From Pontibacter sp. G13 (GTDB lineage: Bacteria > Bacteroidota > Bacteroidia > J057): 64,000 nucleotides of DNA. Every line of letters begins with the position of its first letter. The stretch's first letter is position 1. The stretch spans positions 5,828,001 through 5,892,000 of the forward strand of contig NZ_CP134696.1 of the NCBI RefSeq assembly GCF_031851795.1. The letters run 5' to 3'. The notes below the pieces were generated by a model. The model was not told the DNA's origin, searched no databases, and saw nothing but the letters and a program-made list of their open reading frames with translations. The position numbers were made by a program, and so were the translations under genes. This document shows positions 55,948-64,000 of the stretch, one piece after another.

Positions 55948-56507
55948 TCTTGAATATGTTGACTTATGAATAGTTCCAATATAGCTTTTCTATTGGGCTG
56001 GAAATTCTATATGCTGTTCTCGATATGCGAAGATTGATAATTTTATATTGTTCGTCGCATTGGAATAATTTTTCTGGATTTATTTCTATCTCATTTTTAC
56101 AAAAATAATTACATCTAATTCTAACTGCTTTAGTTGTTGGAACATCTTTTTTTTCTTCATATCTGGCTTGTAATGCCGTTAGGGTAGATTTTGGGAGTCG
56201 TTTAAAGATGCGAAATCAAGCCAGTGTAAATATATTCATACAGATATATTATTATTGCTAGTAGTACTATTATGATTCATGCAGGAAAATATTTTTTTGA
56301 ATTTCATTGGGATATAATCCAAAAAGCAGTATAATGGGATTGTATTAAGGAATGCCCACACCTTCTGCTATTACTTTTTGATTATTCAGACCGTACCAGG
56401 TCACTGATATTTCCAATCGTTAGACCCAGTTGAGATCCGCTGATTCGGCCCCCGAATCGGAGTGAATCCTGTTGTCTATAACCACTCTGATAGACCAGTT
56501 TTTGTTT
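55948..56507. other. AT-rich intergenic island before the lanthipeptide locus
   Basis: About 560 bp without a convincing gene. The stretch 55965-56350 is strikingly AT-rich with runs of A and T, unlike the surrounding coding DNA. It separates the barrel gene from the TonB-dependent receptor and probably contains the promoter of the lanthipeptide locus. Frames here are under 25 codons or overlap the receptor. Confidence 0.6.
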
Positions 56508-58952
56508 ATGCGCACATTGCAACGCTTTGGACGATGTCTTGGACATTCGCGCCTGATACTTTTGTGTCTCATTTTTTCGGGAAATTGTGTTTGGGGTCAG
56601 TCTCCAGTAACGATTTCCGGTCAAATAGCAGATGGTCAATCTGAGGAGGCAGTAGCATACGCGACCGTTCTGCTACATCAAGCGGATTCTCTATTGGGAG
56701 CGGCATTGACCGATTCATTGGGACAGTTTGAGTTGACCATTGCTCCCACTTCGAATGTGACATTGACGATCCGACACTTTCTCTATCAGGCATTTTCGCA
56801 GCCCCTTTCTTTAGATGACCTATCCGCCAATCCCGCCCTTGGTTCCCTCACGTTAGAGCCGGAAACTCCAGAAGTTGAATCGGTAGATATAGAAGCCAAA
56901 CGCCCTGAAATCACCATGGGACCACAGGGAAATCTCACTTTTCGGATCTCAGGTACGACATTGAGCGGAATTGGAAGTGGACTAGACGTATTGGGTCAAA
57001 CCCCTGGCTTGCAGATAGATCCCCAAGGGAGTCTCACCTTTAACGGTCGTCAAGGCGTACTTGTCATCCTCGATGGACGTGAAATGCGGATGAGCGGCCA
57101 GTCTCTTGCCAATTACCTCCAAGGTCTAAATAGCCAACAAATCGAGGAAATCGAGATCATCCAGAATCCCGGTGCCAAATACGATGCGCTTGGTGTGGCA
57201 GGAATTGTCCATATCAAGACCAAACAAGGCCGCGAGAAAGGGTGGGGGGGGACCTACCAGTTGGGAGCCAATTACGGGAAGCGACTCCGCGCTCAGGGCG
57301 GTGTGACAGCCAATTGGCGGCTCAATGAAAAAATCAATTTCAGTACACGTGCCAATATCTCCAATGGACGATCCTTTTCCACATTGGACGAGCAGCGAAA
57401 CATCTTTTCCACTTCGGAAGATCTCGACCGGCAAAATGAACGGATATATGCTTGGAACTCTGAGACGCTGGTTTTGGGGTTGGATTTTACGCCCAATCCC
57501 AAGCACGATCTGGGGATTGTCGTGGAGGCATATCACGAGCAAAACTGGGATGAAACCCACAGTACGACGCGAGTTACTCAATTTGAGGAGTTGGCTTCCT
57601 TGGTAGATTTCGACAGTGATGGAATGCTAGCTTGGTTCAATGCCACTGCGAATATCACCCATAGCTGGACTCCCGATACATTCGCCACCAACTGGACGAC
57701 AGTCATCGATTTGGGGGGATATTGGACCGATTCAGATTATGATCTATTGAGCCAATTTTCGGACGATTCTGGAGATCCCATCGGGGCCAATGAAGTGCGT
57801 AGGACGGAAAATCCTACCTCTATTGAACTCGGATCGATCAAGTCGGATTTTTCCTCCCGCAGATTGGGTTTTTATACAGAAGCGGGTTTCAAGATCAGTC
57901 AGGTCAGAAATGACAATGATTTTCTCGCCATGCGGAATGACGGGGGAATTTGGCTGAGTATACCCGGTCAGACCAACCGATTCTTATTCGATGAGACGAT
58001 TTACGCAGGATACGTAGGGGCTGCCACGACGTGGTTGGGATGGAATTGGTACGGTGGTTTTAGATGGGAACATAGCGTTTCAGAAGGAAACTCCATTACC
58101 TTGGAAGATTCCTTTCGCAGAGAAATATCACAGCCCTTCCCAGTGGTTTCCATTGGTCGAGCCTTCAAAGGGTGGCAGATGTACCTCAACTACGGTAGAA
58201 GAATCAATCGTCCTGATTATCAGGCACTCAATCCCTTTGCCTTCTATTTGGACGAATATTCCTTCTGGCGGGGAAATCCTAACCTGAAGCCACAATTCAC
58301 CCATTCTGCCAGCCTTTCGATCAGTGTCAAGGGAAGTTTGAATATCTCCTTGGTGGCAAGCAGGAGCAATCAATTGCTATACCCGGTTGCAATCCAAGAT
58401 GACTCCACCAAGCGAGTTTTCACGACTCGGGAAAACATTGGGCGATCGGATTATGCAGGCCTATTCGTGAATCACAGCACATCTATCGGCAAGCGTTGGA
58501 CGATGTATCACCAAGCGGGTATGTACTACAACTCGATTTTGGATCAGGTGCAGGACTCCGGCACTGTCGTCTCGGGTATTCAGGGATATTATGTGAATGC
58601 CAATTATAGCTGGGCACTCAAGAACAATTGGTCCTTGAATATGCAGGCATCCTATCAAGGAAAGAATCGGAGTATTTGGGTAGCGGCGGATTATCTGTCC
58701 TTGGGGTTGGGGGTGCAAAAGCAATGGGCCTCAGGGGCCTCCTGCTCATTGAATGTGTCAGATGTATTGGGCACGATTCGGTATGTGAACACCTACGAAT
58801 ACGATGGGATTTCATTTGTCAACCAATACGAACCAGAGACTTTCAAGATTAGCCTTTCTTTCTCTCAACCCTTTGGAAATCAGAAGATCAAGACAAGGAA
58901 AAGAACTTCTGGCCTGGAGGATGAGAAAGGGAGGATCAACAGACAACACTAA
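56508..58952 (+). CDS. TonB-dependent receptor, OMP_b-brl_3 type, linked to the lanthipeptide genes
   Basis: The 814-residue protein has a signal peptide (LILLCLIFSGNCVWGQ), then a carboxypeptidase-regulatory-like domain (VTISGQIADGQSEEAVAYATVLLHQ, about 35-115) and a plug domain (SGLDVLGQTPGLQIDPQGSLTFNGRQGVLVILDG, NAGAK-like motif IIQNPGAKYDALGVAGIVHI). A long barrel of the outer-membrane-family-3 type runs to the end. No SusD partner follows, so it is not a classical SusC. It ends 129 bases before the precursor gene on the same strand. A role in import, recognition or release of the peptide or in self-protection is inferred only from position. ATG 56508 starts the signal peptide; 56472 is also possible. 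Confidence 0.85.
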   Translation: MRTLQRFGRCLGHSRLILLCLIFSGNCVWGQSPVTISGQIADGQSEEAVAYATVLLHQADSLLGAALTDSLGQFELTIAPTSNVTLTIRHFLYQAFSQPLSLDDLSANPALGSLTLEPETPEVESVDIEAKRPEITMGPQGNLTFRISGTTLSGIGSGLDVLGQTPGLQIDPQGSLTFNGRQGVLVILDGREMRMSGQSLANYLQGLNSQQIEEIEIIQNPGAKYDALGVAGIVHIKTKQGREKGWGGTYQLGANYGKRLRAQGGVTANWRLNEKINFSTRANISNGRSFSTLDEQRNIFSTSEDLDRQNERIYAWNSETLVLGLDFTPNPKHDLGIVVEAYHEQNWDETHSTTRVTQFEELASLVDFDSDGMLAWFNATANITHSWTPDTFATNWTTVIDLGGYWTDSDYDLLSQFSDDSGDPIGANEVRRTENPTSIELGSIKSDFSSRRLGFYTEAGFKISQVRNDNDFLAMRNDGGIWLSIPGQTNRFLFDETIYAGYVGAATTWLGWNWYGGFRWEHSVSEGNSITLEDSFRREISQPFPVVSIGRAFKGWQMYLNYGRRINRPDYQALNPFAFYLDEYSFWRGNPNLKPQFTHSASLSISVKGSLNISLVASRSNQLLYPVAIQDDSTKRVFTTRENIGRSDYAGLFVNHSTSIGKRWTMYHQAGMYYNSILDQVQDSGTVVSGIQGYYVNANYSWALKNNWSLNMQASYQGKNRSIWVAADYLSLGLGVQKQWASGASCSLNVSDVLGTIRYVNTYEYDGISFVNQYEPETFKISLSFSQPFGNQKIKTRKRTSGLEDEKGRINRQH

Positions 58953-59081: not shown

Positions 59082-59270
59082 ATGAAAACTTTCAAATTCA
59101 AAGGCAAACTGTCTATCGACAAGCAGACGATCGCTCAGTTGACTGATGCTCAGTTGGAAAGCATCCAAGGTGGAGCTGGTTCTAGCTCTTCTTCTTCTAC
59201 CCCTGCATCCAACGGTTGCACCGCTTCCTGCAACTCTTGCATCACTTGCCCAATCAAGAAGATTGGATAA
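59082..59270 (+). CDS. lanA: Class I lanthipeptide precursor
   Basis: The 62-residue peptide has a leader of 31 residues ending in Gly30-Gly31, containing KLSIDKQTI and LTDAQLESIQGG, which resembles double-glycine leaders of Bacteroidota class I lanthipeptides. The core, residues 32-62, contains a run of six Ser (34-39), Thr40, Ser43, four Cys (46, 50, 53, 56) in the pattern C-x3-C-x2-C-x2-C, and a basic Ile-Lys-Lys-Ile-Gly end. Twelve Ser/Thr can be dehydrated and four Cys can form up to four thioether rings. A TTG-started frame from 58974 would add an unlikely lead; ATG 59082 gives the normal leader. It is followed by lanC, lanB and a C39 exporter. Confidence 0.85.
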   Translation: MKTFKFKGKLSIDKQTIAQLTDAQLESIQGGAGSSSSSSTPASNGCTASCNSCITCPIKKIG

Positions 59271-59284
59271 TTTCTGGTGAATCA

Positions 59285-59307
59285 GGTTAGGGGATACACC
59301 CCTAACC
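59285..59307 (+). terminator. First hairpin after the precursor gene
   Basis: GGTTAGGGG (59285-59293) and CCCCTAACC (59299-59307) form a perfect 9-bp stem with a 5-base loop, 14 bases after the precursor stop. No U run follows, so it may be an RNA-stabilising or attenuating element rather than a full terminator. Confidence 0.6.
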
Positions 59308-59318
59308 TCACCATTTAA

Positions 59319-59352
59319 TTACATCTGGAATGCAATTGCATTCCAGATGTAA
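59319..59352. promoter_or_regulatory. Perfect 34-base palindrome between lanA and lanC
   Basis: The two halves (TTACATCTGGAATGCAA and its exact reverse complement) meet without a spacer at 59335/59336. As RNA it folds into a stem of about 15 bp with a tiny loop; as DNA it could be an operator. It lies midway between the precursor and the biosynthetic genes. Confidence 0.6.
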
Positions 59353-59363
59353 AATATACAATT

Positions 59364-59398
59364 CTCCGAAGAGTAAAAAATCCTTTTACTATCCGGAG
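59364..59398 (+). promoter_or_regulatory. Third hairpin in the lanA-lanC leader
   Basis: An outer stem CTCCG/CGGAG (59364-59368 and 59394-59398) encloses AGTAAAA/TTTTACT (59372-59378 and 59384-59390). With the two preceding structures it makes a three-hairpin leader upstream of lanC. Confidence 0.45.
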
Positions 59399-59483: not shown

Positions 59484-60692
59484 ATGGAATCTACTGCAAC
59501 GCAATTGCGAGATACACAGATCGCCCTGATCCGTGATATATTCCTAATGACCCAATCTCACCTTCCGGATGAAGACGGCTGGTTCGATGGAAGACTCGGT
59601 TATATGCTATTTGATTGGTATTACCGGTTGTCCTTCGAATTAGATCTCGATCCCGTGGGGGAGGCATTTTCCGACTTATTGGGTCGTTTAAACGAGGGCA
59701 ATTCTAGCCTAACGGATGATTCCCTTTCCAAAGGAATGACCGGCCTAGCTCTGGTCCTAAACCATTTCCATCAGGAATTTCAGTGGGAGGTCGATGACTT
59801 GTTGGCTGATCTGGATCAAATGGTTATCGCCTGCATCGAAGAGCGTATCCTCAAGGGAGAAAAGGATTTCTATCACCAAGCGACTGGATTACTCCATTAC
59901 CTCATCCAACGATTGGCACAAAACGGGATTGAGCAAGTCGTTGATCATTGCCTGGACCTTTGGACCCAAACTTCCACCATAGATCTAGCAGGATTGCGCT
60001 ATCGGAGTTCGATGGGCCAAGGAGCTGGGGTAGCCTATGATTTGGGATTGGCACACGGTCTTACAGGTTTTCTGTTGACTATCAGTCCTTTGGTTGATCA
60101 TCCAAGGTTGGGTGAAAAGGCAATTACCTTGGTTCAGGCAGGCCTTCGATATTATCAAACAGTGGCAGCCAAAGCGTCGACCGATGAAAGGACTCCTGCA
60201 GATTCCGAAATCCCCGTCTTTGTAGGAGTGGATCAGCCAACCGTAGTCCGTACCAATCGGATGGCCTATTGCTACGGTGATATCGGCCCCTTGCTGGTCT
60301 GGGAACGAACCCGGCATTTCCTATCTATTTCTGATCAGCAAAAGCTGTTTTGGGATCAAATCCATTCCAAGGTTTGTGCTGCCCAAACCCCTGAAAAGAC
60401 CGGAATCGACGATGCGCATTTGTGCCACGGATCTGCGGGAATTGCCTTGATGTTTCGGGCACTGAATGCCGCTCATCCTCAGAAAGCGTATTTGGATGGC
60501 TATGAATTTTGGGTGGAGAAAACTTGGCAATACGCCCAAGAAGATCTGGCCACAGGAGCATACGCTGGAGGACCCGCCAGTTTGTTGGAAGGATTTAGTG
60601 GGGTAGGACTGGCATGCTTGACTTTTCTGTATGGCTCGGACTGGAACTGGCCATCGCTTTTTCTGCTCCCTACCAATCCCCAAGCATCATGA
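59484..60692 (+). CDS. lanC: LanC-family lanthionine synthetase (cyclase)
   Basis: The 402-residue alpha-toroid enzyme adds Cys thiols to dehydrated Ser/Thr. The zinc ligands are visible: Cys263 in RMAYCYGDIG and Cys314-His315 in LCHGSAG. The active-site His191 in GLAHGLTG is also present, and all family motifs are in order. ATG 59484 is used; the TTG two codons earlier is unlikely. Its stop overlaps the LanB start by 4 bp, indicating coupled translation. The 213-base gap after the precursor gene holds three hairpins, consistent with lower expression than the precursor. It is cytoplasmic, presumably acting with LanB and the exporter at the membrane. Confidence 0.93.
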   Translation: MESTATQLRDTQIALIRDIFLMTQSHLPDEDGWFDGRLGYMLFDWYYRLSFELDLDPVGEAFSDLLGRLNEGNSSLTDDSLSKGMTGLALVLNHFHQEFQWEVDDLLADLDQMVIACIEERILKGEKDFYHQATGLLHYLIQRLAQNGIEQVVDHCLDLWTQTSTIDLAGLRYRSSMGQGAGVAYDLGLAHGLTGFLLTISPLVDHPRLGEKAITLVQAGLRYYQTVAAKASTDERTPADSEIPVFVGVDQPTVVRTNRMAYCYGDIGPLLVWERTRHFLSISDQQKLFWDQIHSKVCAAQTPEKTGIDDAHLCHGSAGIALMFRALNAAHPQKAYLDGYEFWVEKTWQYAQEDLATGAYAGGPASLLEGFSGVGLACLTFLYGSDWNWPSLFLLPTNPQAS

Positions 60693-63600
60693 AGTTTCCA
60701 TTTGAAATCGATCACCGGACCGTTGTCCGGACGCCCCAATATGCCTTGAGCTTACCCGAAAATGAGAAGGCTTTGTTCGCCTTTTTTGCGCAGCCGGAAG
60801 TTCAAGAAGCCCTTTTCCTCGCTTCTCCCAATCTCCTGCGAGAATACCACAAGTGGGAAGCAGGAGAAATCAAATCTGGCAAACCATTGACAAAGTTGGT
60901 GGTGGCATTGACCAAATACTATGGCAGGATGCATGCACGCTGTACCCCATTTGGATTATTTGCCAGAATCGGAATCGCTCATTGGCACGAATCCGAACAA
61001 CAATCTCCTTCGGCCAACTGGAAGTCTCGGCATACGCGAATTGACATGGGGGTACTTTGTTTGTTGGCAGATGCCGTCCAACAATTGCCGATTGTGCGAC
61101 AGCATTTGGTTTACTACCCAAACAGCAGCTTATATGCCATCCACGACATGTTTCGGTATGTGGAGTCTACCCAAAGCAAACAAGGAAAATCCTATCAGTT
61201 GACTTCTTTGGGGAGAACAGAGGTCATCCAATTTTTGGTGGATCAGGCTCGGGAAGGCGCGGAGATTCGAACTTTGGCTGCTCCATTGGTGGATGAAGAA
61301 GTCACGCTGGAAGATGCGATCGCCTTTATCGAGGCCTTGATCGAGTATCAGGTGTTTGTGAGCGAATTAGATTTTTCGGTTACAGGACCTGAATATTTGG
61401 AGCGCCTGTTGACAAAATTGGGGGAGATTTTTGACTCGACAGCAGATCCCGAGGTAGGGAATTGGGTGCAAAGTCTTCAGCGTATCGAGGGTTTGATCGC
61501 TGCATTGGATACAGATTCTGCGAATTCCCCAGCGGCCTATCAGGTCATTGAACAACAATTCAAGGATTTGGGGATTACCTTGCCCTCCAGCCATATTGTT
61601 CAAGTAGATGCCAATCGATCATTTGCGCATCAGCCAATTGGGTATCCCATCAAGGCCACGCTGAAAAACGCACTGAAGGTATGTGCCAAGCTTTCATCAC
61701 AGCCCCCCCATTATCGGCTGGATCAGTTCAAGCAATCCTTCATGCGTCGATATGAGGATCAGGAAATCCCGCTTTTGATGGCATTGGATGTCGAGAATGG
61801 GGTCGGCTACGGGGATATGCTGCTGAAGGATGATAATCCCTTGACCCGTGATCTCTTCTTTCAGCAGGGAGGAAATACAACGGAAATCAAATGGACGCCC
61901 CAAGATCGTTGGAAGACTCAGAAGCTGATCGAGCTTCAAAAATCCGGCGCTAGAGAGTATCGGCTTACAGATGAAGATATCAATCAATTTGAGTTTGACA
62001 CTGGTGCGCTTCCTCCCACTTTTTCTGCCATGTATCGGTTGGTAGGAGATGGAGAAATCCTGATTGAGCATATCGGGAATGCCTCCGCTACGAATCTATT
62101 GGGGCGATTTTGTCATACCAATCCGGCCGTCAATGATCTCGTCATGGATCTGGCAGCACAGGAAGCCGAAAAGAACCCAGAAGTGATCTTCGCGGAAATT
62201 GCCCATTTACCCGAAAATCGCACGGGAAATATCTTATTGAGACCTGCTATCCGCGAATATGAAATTCCCTTTCTCGCTCAAAGTACCCTGCCCGCCGAGC
62301 AGCAAATTGCTGTAGAGGATTTGTATGTTTCGGTGTACTGGGATCAAATCTACCTGAGGTCCCGCAAGTTGGACAAGCGGATTATTCCTCGTCTGAGTAC
62401 CGCCCACAACTATACCTACCTTTCGCAGCCCATCTACCAATTCCTCTGCGACCTTCAGCAACAAGGCTTGAAAACGCACATGAACTTCAATTGGGGGCCT
62501 TTGCTGGATCACTTCGAGTATCTGCCGAGGGTTCGCTATAAGAACATCGTCCTTTTTCGAGCTTTTTGGAAAGTGGATCTCCGCCCGTTCAAATCCATGT
62601 TCAAATCGCAGGGGCAAAAGCAAATGGATGCATTTCAGGAGTTTGCTGATAAGTTGGAGCTGCCCAAGCGGTTTGTCTTGGCGGATATGGACAATGAGTT
62701 ACTCGTCGATCGGGATAATCCGCTGATGGTCCAATGCTTCCTCCAGACCGTGAAGCAACGACGGGAGGTAATTCTAAAGGAATTTCTGGAAGATCAGAAA
62801 GGAGCTTTGACCGATGAATCAGGACGGACTTATGCCAATCAATTGGTGTCGTCATTTGTCAAATCGGCAGCGACTTTCGACCAAACGCTTCCCGTGCATT
62901 TGCAAGCTCATAACAAGCCTGAAGCCGCCAAGGCCAAACATCCTCAAACCAGTCTTTGGAGTTACTTCCGGATCTATGGAGGCGTGAAATCACTGGATCG
63001 TTTGCTCGGGGAAGTCATCGGAGCATTTGCATCGTCTCAAAAGGAGTCAGGCAAAGTGGACAAATGGTATTTCATTCGCTACCGTGATGAGGAGGAGCAT
63101 CTGCGCATTCGGTTTCAGGCGACTTCCCCTATGGCCAAGTCCCATCTGATGGCTGCATTCGCCCAGTACATCGAGCCATTCGAAGCATCAGGACTCATCT
63201 GGAAAGTGGAAACGGGGACTTATCTCCCGGAAATCAACCGATATGGCCAGACCACGATGGAGGTATCGGAATCCATATTCCATCTGGAAAGCCAGCTGTT
63301 GGTGAATCTCATGCCCAATTTGATCGCTGCGGAATCCCCCAATCTGCGCTGGTGTCTGGGATTGATGTATCTAGATCAATGGTTTCAGGTATGTACCTTT
63401 TCTGAAGAGGAGCAGACGACGTTCATGGATCAGCTTAAGCAAGGCTATGAAAAGGAATTCAATGTCACTTCTTTTCAGCGCAAGCAGATACTCGGAAAAT
63501 ACAAGCGATACTTACCTACGATTGAATCCGCCCTGTCAGGCTCTGGCTCCGAATGGCAGACTTTGGCACAGCGACTCACCGAACATTTCGAGGAAATGAA

Positions 63601-63814
63601 TCCTCATATTCAATATGTGCTGGACCTCAATCGATCGCTCACCTTGAAGGTGGATTTCGAAACCTGGATGGCGAGCCATGTCCACATGTTCCTCAATCGC
63701 CTCATCCCTTCCTTCCAGCGGAAGAATGAGTTGGTCATCTACACCTTCCTGCATGCCTATTACCGATCGCGGCAAGCAAGAAAACAGCCTTCCTCTCACA
63801 GTCAAGCCGTGTAA
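60689..63814 (+). CDS. lanB: LanB-type lantibiotic dehydratase, full length
   Basis: The 1041-residue enzyme glutamylates Ser/Thr from Glu-tRNA and eliminates glutamate, producing dehydroamino acids. The N-terminal glutamylation domain shows RCTPFGLFARIG (residues 84-95), the family hallmark. The C-terminal elimination domain (SpaB_C type) runs from about residue 755 (WSYFRIYGG, then WYFIRYRDEEEHLRIRF) to the end. Both halves are fused in one chain, unlike split systems reported from some Bacteroidota lanthipeptides. ATG 60689 overlaps the lanC stop by 4 bp. The peptide exporter gene follows 9 bases later. Confidence 0.93.
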   Translation: MKFPFEIDHRTVVRTPQYALSLPENEKALFAFFAQPEVQEALFLASPNLLREYHKWEAGEIKSGKPLTKLVVALTKYYGRMHARCTPFGLFARIGIAHWHESEQQSPSANWKSRHTRIDMGVLCLLADAVQQLPIVRQHLVYYPNSSLYAIHDMFRYVESTQSKQGKSYQLTSLGRTEVIQFLVDQAREGAEIRTLAAPLVDEEVTLEDAIAFIEALIEYQVFVSELDFSVTGPEYLERLLTKLGEIFDSTADPEVGNWVQSLQRIEGLIAALDTDSANSPAAYQVIEQQFKDLGITLPSSHIVQVDANRSFAHQPIGYPIKATLKNALKVCAKLSSQPPHYRLDQFKQSFMRRYEDQEIPLLMALDVENGVGYGDMLLKDDNPLTRDLFFQQGGNTTEIKWTPQDRWKTQKLIELQKSGAREYRLTDEDINQFEFDTGALPPTFSAMYRLVGDGEILIEHIGNASATNLLGRFCHTNPAVNDLVMDLAAQEAEKNPEVIFAEIAHLPENRTGNILLRPAIREYEIPFLAQSTLPAEQQIAVEDLYVSVYWDQIYLRSRKLDKRIIPRLSTAHNYTYLSQPIYQFLCDLQQQGLKTHMNFNWGPLLDHFEYLPRVRYKNIVLFRAFWKVDLRPFKSMFKSQGQKQMDAFQEFADKLELPKRFVLADMDNELLVDRDNPLMVQCFLQTVKQRREVILKEFLEDQKGALTDESGRTYANQLVSSFVKSAATFDQTLPVHLQAHNKPEAAKAKHPQTSLWSYFRIYGGVKSLDRLLGEVIGAFASSQKESGKVDKWYFIRYRDEEEHLRIRFQATSPMAKSHLMAAFAQYIEPFEASGLIWKVETGTYLPEINRYGQTTMEVSESIFHLESQLLVNLMPNLIAAESPNLRWCLGLMYLDQWFQVCTFSEEEQTTFMDQLKQGYEKEFNVTSFQRKQILGKYKRYLPTIESALSGSGSEWQTLAQRLTEHFEEMNPHIQYVLDLNRSLTLKVDFETWMASHVHMFLNRLIPSFQRKNELVIYTFLHAYYRSRQARKQPSSHSQAV

Positions 63815-63823
63815 TCGCTCGAT

Positions 63824-64000
63824 ATGCCCATTCAATCATTTCCTAGCTACATACAGTACGACATCACGGATTGTGGACCGACCTGCCTACGGATCATTTC
63901 CAAATACTATGGCAAGGAAATTAGCCTAGATACTATCCGGTCGTTGAGCGAAAAAACGCGGACAGGGACCAATCTGCTCGGACTAAGCGAGGCGGCTGAA
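63824..64000 (+). CDS. lanT: C39-peptidase ABC exporter, 5' part only
   Basis: Only 59 codons are in the window. They show the N-terminus of a bacteriocin-processing peptidase of family C39, with catalytic Cys17 in TDCGPTCL and the oxyanion-hole Gln11 (IQYDITDC). The helix ISKYYGK and the segment ISLDTIRSLSEKTRTGTNLLGLSEAAE follow, as in the peptidase domain of double-glycine exporters. It should cleave the precursor after Gly30-Gly31 and export it. The remaining peptidase, membrane and ATPase domains lie beyond the window. It starts 9 bases after lanB, so it belongs to the same transcript. Confidence 0.88.
   Translation, partial: MPIQSFPSYIQYDITDCGPTCLRIISKYYGKEISLDTIRSLSEKTRTGTNLLGLSEAAE

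Follow-up and report, generated by a model that had tools for sequence, protein, structure and literature searches.

The open reading frame at positions 59082–59270 of the window (the whole 64,000-nucleotide stretch of the Pontibacter sp. G13 genome that was analyzed) is well supported by its sequence and gene context as a real class I lanthipeptide gene, lanA, which encodes a known kind of precursor. The joint reading, in which a class I lanthipeptide carries a C-terminal ring block and undergoes some tailoring step by a luciferase-like flavin enzyme (LLM), has a probability of roughly 0.85. Two features, a tail of six serines and an LLM that is not of the F420 type, appear to be new on this precursor kind. 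The genes and elements concerned are the following, with L004 coordinates for those that extend or lie beyond the window:

56472–58952, forward strand: outer-membrane beta-barrel gene, possibly linked to the cluster (PF14905, 241 bits)
59082–59270, forward strand: lanA, 62-aa class I lanthipeptide precursor (ATG at 59082, stop at 59268–59270)
59181–59198, forward strand: six-Ser run, residues 34–39 of lanA, an outlier among 86 related cores
59208–59249, forward strand: ring region S43–C56, with S43-C46, T47-C50, S49-C53, and S52-C56 as the sole i+3/i+4 assignment
59284–59398, forward strand: three successive hairpins in the lanA–lanC gap (59284–59308, 59319–59352, and 59364–59398)
59484–60692, forward strand: lanC cyclase (LANC_like; PF05147, 62.0 bits, cut-off 23.2)
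60689–63814, forward strand: lanB, full length, 1040 aa (PF04738, 475 bits; PF14028, 184 bits)
63824–64000 (5′ part), forward strand: C39-peptidase ABC exporter (PF03412, PF00005, and PF00664); whole gene at L004:5825–8023, equivalent to 63824–66022 of the window
L004:8034–8678, forward strand, beyond the window: 214-aa protein without a family match, between the exporter and the LLM
L004:8675–9595, forward strand, beyond the window: LLM, 306 aa (PF00296, 72.6 bits), last gene of the operon

The initial annotation had taken lanA for a lanthipeptide precursor, and this reading is borne out because one operon unites lanC, lanB, and a C39 exporter with a precursor gene whose leader belongs to a curated family. 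The curated NCBIfam model for class I lanthipeptide leaders (NF038153) gives 39.4 bits on lanA (cut-off 22), and lanA is the only match of this model in the genome (E ≤ 1); the precursor as a query likewise has no second match there (E ≤ 10). The translation consists of the leader MKTFKFKGKLSIDKQTIAQLTDAQLESIQGG (residues 1–31, ending with ESIQGG and thus with Gly-Gly) followed by the core AGSSSSSSTPASNGCTASCNSCITCPIKKIG (residues 32–62). The leader motif LSIDKQTIAQL is of the LxLxKx5L type with the second L replaced by I; such a motif was reported for Bacteroidota class I lanthipeptides (Walker et al., 2020; PMC7268733). This leader type, together with the named LLM relatives in Spirosoma and Chryseobacterium, points to an origin of the cluster in the Bacteroidota. 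The Bacteroidota NF038153 precursors are also alike in the Gly-Gly end and in having a C39 protease, LanB, and LanC in the cluster. They differ from lanA in the core, as the six-Ser tail is found in none of the 85 other sampled cores and a complete local four-ring block is rare. Pinensins are class I products as well, but their leader type differs, and the pinensin leader model (NF038180) is absent among the matches of the lanA precursor at E ≤ 1.

The biosynthetic genes are intact. LanC is a stand-alone cyclase containing the CYG and CHG motifs, which we take to be zinc ligands, and a comparison of LanC with PDB sequences gave no NisC match (E ≤ 0.1). LanB combines the N-terminal dehydratase and C-terminal elimination domains in one protein, aligns over residues 36–889 of 1040 with NisB (6m7y, E 2.4e-32), and is the sole PF04738 match in the genome. 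The start of lanB overlaps the stop of lanC (ATGA), and the LLM start overlaps the 214-aa gene in the same manner. The exporter scores 109.8 bits on PF03412, and its gene is complete beyond the window end. In the lanA–lanC gap, the first two hairpins have folding energies of –23.4 and –23.6 kcal/mol (z of –5.2 and –7.8 relative to shuffles), and one of the three is a perfect 34-base palindrome. A simple terminator scan did not list these hairpins; they possibly represent a partial terminator or an mRNA-stabilizing element, and may reduce read-through such that lanA is expressed above lanBC.

The beta-barrel gene ends 129 bases upstream of lanA. Among the 65 stretches searched, relatives of this gene (at least 400 aligned residues) occur near lanA/lanC in six others (Spirosoma, Chryseobacterium, G139, G343, G150, and G729), of which four belong to LLM-bearing genomes or plasmids. 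G150 and G729 have no LLM, the G729 copy lies on the opposite strand, and the G343 relative is on a different contig from the G343 LLM. The annotation of the Spirosoma and Chryseobacterium plasmids lists the product of this gene as an outer membrane beta-barrel family protein. The encoded protein may function in export, uptake, or self-protection.

The core has the layout AG-SSSSSS-TPAS-NGCTASCNSCITC-PIKKIG, and the start described in the initial annotation (AG, six Ser, and Thr-Pro-Ala) is confirmed within the complete 62-aa reading frame. The Ser codons are TCT AGC TCT TCT TCT TCT, and a short slippage-prone (TCT)4 tract contributes to the run. For comparison, 101 rows were taken from genome draws and two plasmids, comprising those selected by a purpose-built leader profile (>10 bits) and 20 annotated plasmid precursors. 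These rows represent 90 distinct precursor-like reading frames, or 86 after four without a recognizable cleavage site were dropped. In this sample, of which a few rows may be false precursors, the longest Ser run is 0 in four cores, 1 in 64, 2 in 15, and 3 in two, while the lanA core alone has 6. The tail is therefore unusual as suspected, being the only Ser run longer than three among the 86 cores. An additional 21 precursor rows recovered by pattern (several of them already counted) contain no Ser run above two. Beyond precursors, a run of at least six Ser is absent in 735 reading frames (288,419 aa) from 64 partly overlapping stretches, which contain eight runs of four or more, and in the 40 reading frames of at least 100 aa in the window. 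When the lanA core was shuffled, six consecutive Ser appeared in 542 of 200,000 permutations.

The precursor has matches in four of 60 relatives (E ≤ 0.1) and in eight of 328 class genomes (E ≤ 0.001), both counts including the source genome. These matches start mostly within the leader, and the cores recovered from them, by a pattern that missed some matches, have no Ser run above two. Two genome-contig scans with the precursor and LanB as queries confirmed no close precursor homologs; the single-sequence patterns used are narrow, as the LanB scan also confirmed nothing although LanB relatives exist. The search for related precursors that had been suggested at the outset thus yields related leaders and, among the sampled cores, no similar tail. 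The lanA core differs from those of the sampled relatives. A search of the open-access literature found no titles dealing with poly-Ser lanthipeptide cores or with LLM genes of class I clusters in Bacteroidota.

Downstream of the tail, Cys residues at positions 46, 50, 53, and 56 confirm the C-x3-C-x2-C-x2-C spacing, with Ser/Thr no more than three residues before every Cys. For C53 and C56 this Ser/Thr is the immediate neighbor, and the residue with which each could plausibly form a ring lies four positions back. With Ser/Thr at i+3/i+4 spacing, a range settled on after four were tried on this core, exactly one complete pairing of the four Cys exists. When only the non-Cys residues of the ring region were permuted, a complete assignment arose in 319 of 100,000 cases, and permuting the Cys as well gave one in 4,856 of 100,000. 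Of the 72 cores containing two or more Cys, four (lanA included) allow such an assignment. Four small rings in the product are supported because this spacing solution is unique. The initial annotation had envisaged up to four small interlocking rings; the number agrees with this solution, and interlocking holds for rings 2–4 but not for ring 1, which stands apart. The core segment S-N-G-C-T-A-S-C resembles nisin rings A/B in having two juxtaposed candidate rings and a Thr after the first Cys, although the first ring is one residue shorter and Pro-Gly/Ser is replaced by Ala-Ser. The sequence SNGCTASC does not conform to the lipid II motif of the nisin/gallidermin type, SxxxCTP(G/S)C (as given in PMC7268733).

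The core contains 12 Ser/Thr and four Cys, and under the unique assignment eight Ser/Thr are unused, namely the six of the run plus T40 and T55. In the proposed biosynthesis, LanB would dehydrate core Ser/Thr with glutamyl-tRNA, and LanC would join each of the four Cys to its i-3/i-4 partner, so that the first ring stands alone and the other three form a chain. During export, the exporter's C39 domain would cleave after Gly-Gly, and the LLM would act in a later modification of the peptide, conceivably by reducing tail dehydroalanines to D-alanine. What becomes of the tail and what the LLM does are distinct questions, for which reason the likelihoods given below overlap.

At least partial dehydration of the surplus six-Ser tail is slightly favored. 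A serious competitor, although short of even odds, is that the tail stays unmodified as a flexible hydrophilic linker or spacer, with LanB acting on the ring region only and the LLM acting elsewhere or being idle. Some LanBs prefer hydrophobic flanks and act poorly on Ser in a hydrophilic setting, and poly-Ser may be such a poor substrate here. The slippage-prone nature of the (TCT)4 repeat also fits an unmodified tail, as does the absence of a Ser run above three in the precursors read from the remaining LLM-bearing clusters. Against it stand the ratio of 12 Ser/Thr to four Cys and the behavior of two Bacteroidota LanBs, which dehydrated their substrates beyond the number of rings (Lee et al., 2023; PMC9993889). 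In that study, two Bacteroidota LanABC sets (Chryseobacterium OV715 ChmA and Runella limosa RuiA), a kind shared by the present cluster, each yielded a product in E. coli that was dehydrated seven times and contained three rings. This likeness concerns the gene set, and the main text of the paper contains no luciferase-like, flavin, or monooxygenase term.

For the LLM, the nearest family is that of the MsnO8 monooxygenase (TIGR03558), on which it scores 116.3 bits and is not a member by score (cut-off 166.95). Only one of seven LLM relatives, that of Spirosoma (167.5), reaches this cut-off. The score on the F420-type MSMEG_4879 model (TIGR03564) is 19.2 bits, far from the cut-off of 234.25. 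F420 use by this LLM is unlikely because CofD (TIGR01819) has no match in the genome (98.1% complete) at E ≤ 0.01, in a test based on this one marker that was positive in nine of 14 control genomes. A profile of the LLM clade has 14 matches in PDB, of which the single F420 enzyme is ranked last. The EHH motif of luciferase-like enzymes has a catalytic role. It is seen in luciferase alpha, in MsnO8, and in those generic LLMs whose motif was read. Three of the eight clade members deviate from it, with EHY in the present LLM, ENY in G041, and EHF in G455.

These properties bear on a second competitor, namely that the LLM is an FMNH2/O2 monooxygenase that oxidizes either the rings or some other residue (to a sulfoxide, for instance) and does not use the Ser tail as a substrate. 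Such a sulfoxide occurs in actagardine, and GarO is an LLM sulfoxidase; the open-access literature search listed no paper that mentions both GarO and actagardine. Proximity to MsnO8 and the lack of a CofD match agree with such a role, as does the fact that Cys-based rings are common to the candidate substrates of the clade while surplus Ser/Thr are not. The altered EHH motifs argue mildly against it, and the LLM superfamily also includes dehydroalanine reductases (PMC7268733; PMC8068269; PMC8498797). An oxygenation role is considered plausible, although short of even odds.

Reduction of the tail to D-alanine is possible because LanJC enzymes elsewhere reduce dehydroalanine to D-alanine. An LLM (PF00296) of the birimositide cluster was named LanJC, with mass data consistent with Ser-to-D-Ala conversion (PMC7268733), and LxmJ reduces dehydroalanine to D-alanine (PMC8068269; PMC8498797); Cao12 has been suggested as another. 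The six-Ser tail would, once dehydrated, offer an obvious substrate for such an enzyme. The present gene fits this description as a luciferase-like superfamily gene inside the cluster (PF00296, with the ATGA overlap), which makes dehydroalanine-to-D-Ala its candidate reaction. However, the birimositide, LxmJ, and Cao12 clusters belong to class II or V and to Streptomyces, whereas the present cluster is class I. LxmJ and Cao12 are of the F420 MSMEG_4879 type, whereas the LLM studied here is MsnO8-like, a comparison made by family. Moreover, surplus Ser/Thr are not more numerous in LLM-bearing clusters (eight vs. 24 clusters, Mann-Whitney p = 0.37; cores with fewer than two Cys left out and the G221 cluster counted as LLM-free), such that a tie between LLM presence and surplus Ser/Thr is unsupported. 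Some cores of the LLM-bearing G139, G343, and Chryseobacterium plasmid clusters have zero surplus. An [ST]CN motif occurs in five of eight LLM clusters and six of 24 others (Fisher p = 0.09), a post hoc observation that was not used as evidence. Because of the MsnO8 proximity, the absence of CofD, and the lack of a surplus-Ser/Thr excess, reduction of tail dehydroalanines to D-alanine by the LLM is considered doubtful overall and oxygenation is rated above it. In its full form, with up to six consecutive D-alanines preceding the four-ring block through LanB and an F420-free, FMN-type LLM, the proposal must be regarded as unlikely.

A dehydrated tail may also be kept as a run of dehydroalanines forming a reactive electrophilic arm, which seems rather improbable. 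Leftover dehydro residues were found in the products of two Bacteroidota class I LanABC sets, but such residues took up glutathione in E. coli (PMC9993889), and the presence of a flavin enzyme gene in the operon points to additional processing. That lanA is a chance or decayed small reading frame in a non-functional cluster would agree with the lack of a similarly tailed relative in the sampled genomes, but is highly improbable given the curated leader, the unique ring geometry, the intact lanB, lanC, and exporter, and the overlapping genes.

The LLM and its nearest relatives appear to form a distinct clade. The genome has one match for this LLM, and relatives at E ≤ 1e-25 occur in five of 395 class genomes (own included); in a similar draw, LanB relatives at E ≤ 1e-15 occur in 41 of 395. 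In four of the five genomes (own, G041, G139, and G723), the LLM is in the same cluster as LanB, with two opposite-strand reading frames separating the two genes in G723. In the fifth, G455, the LLM has a LanC-like gene on one side and a stand-alone Lant_dehydr_C gene on the other, with a pinensin-family leader precursor nearby. In G343, from the phylum draws, the LLM adjoins LanB. Among 321 plasmid records, the two top-ranked LLM matches belong to clusters annotated as class I lanthipeptide, one in Spirosoma oryzicola with six precursors and one in Chryseobacterium sp. G0186 with 14. All eight clade LLMs found are thus in lanthipeptide-type clusters. In a maximum-likelihood tree of 18 rows, with six generic LLMs as the outgroup, these eight split from nine other LLMs and one weak match with support of 97/95, although long-branch warnings apply, including one for the LLM studied here. 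With the Spirosoma LLM as the query, four clade members match at 3.3e-46 or better and six other matches are at 2.9e-30 or weaker. Taken together, the clade appears to be a recurrent and uncharacterized component of lanthipeptide clusters.

Several other loci were noted. The weak LLM near LanC in G221 (L096) has a very long branch that lies outside the clade. Five of the 40 plasmid LLM matches listed were inspected (H1, H2, H16, H17, and H18); H1 and H2 are located in lanthipeptide clusters, H16 and H18 have no annotated lanthipeptide gene within 6–7 kb on either side, and H17 groups with the generic LLMs even though it stands third after a gene of the LanC family. A plasmid of Deinococcus sp. 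QL22 (L134:1627–7038) has a generic-group LLM whose gene comes third after one of the LanC family and is preceded by an S8 peptidase gene, and this LLM is possibly another luciferase-like tailoring enzyme. The G455 locus (L128:7083–12364) comprises the pinensin-leader precursor, a 673-aa LanC-like protein, the LLM, and the stand-alone Lant_dehydr_C gene, and G455 is absent from the 41 genomes with a LanB match. The Chryseobacterium sp. G0186 cluster (L132:3655–18186, on a 25.6-kb plasmid) has 14 tandem precursors, the LLM, two LanC genes, and two lantibiotic dehydratase genes. Two LanC-like genes are found in each of the LLM-bearing clusters L081, L098, L131, and L132, compared with one in the window's cluster. 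Finally, G261 (L097:8004–11359) has 19 tandem Gly-Gly-leader peptides, mostly with hydrophobic cores containing one Cys or none (e.g., TSPLCIGVIIGLTITIYAD); this array matches the class I lanthipeptide leader model but looks unlike lanthipeptides.

Few Bacteroidota lanthipeptides have been characterized so far; in 2020, pinensins were described as the only ones isolated (PMC7268733). The window's precursor provides a clean test substrate, as there are one precursor, one LanB, one LanC, and one LLM, and the six identical candidate sites of the tail are separate from a ring block that allows one local assignment. If the D-alanine proposal were true, a luciferase-like reductase that is F420-free would be installing D-amino acids in a lanthipeptide of class I, and an enzyme placing several D-Ala residues consecutively would be a useful tool for peptide engineering.
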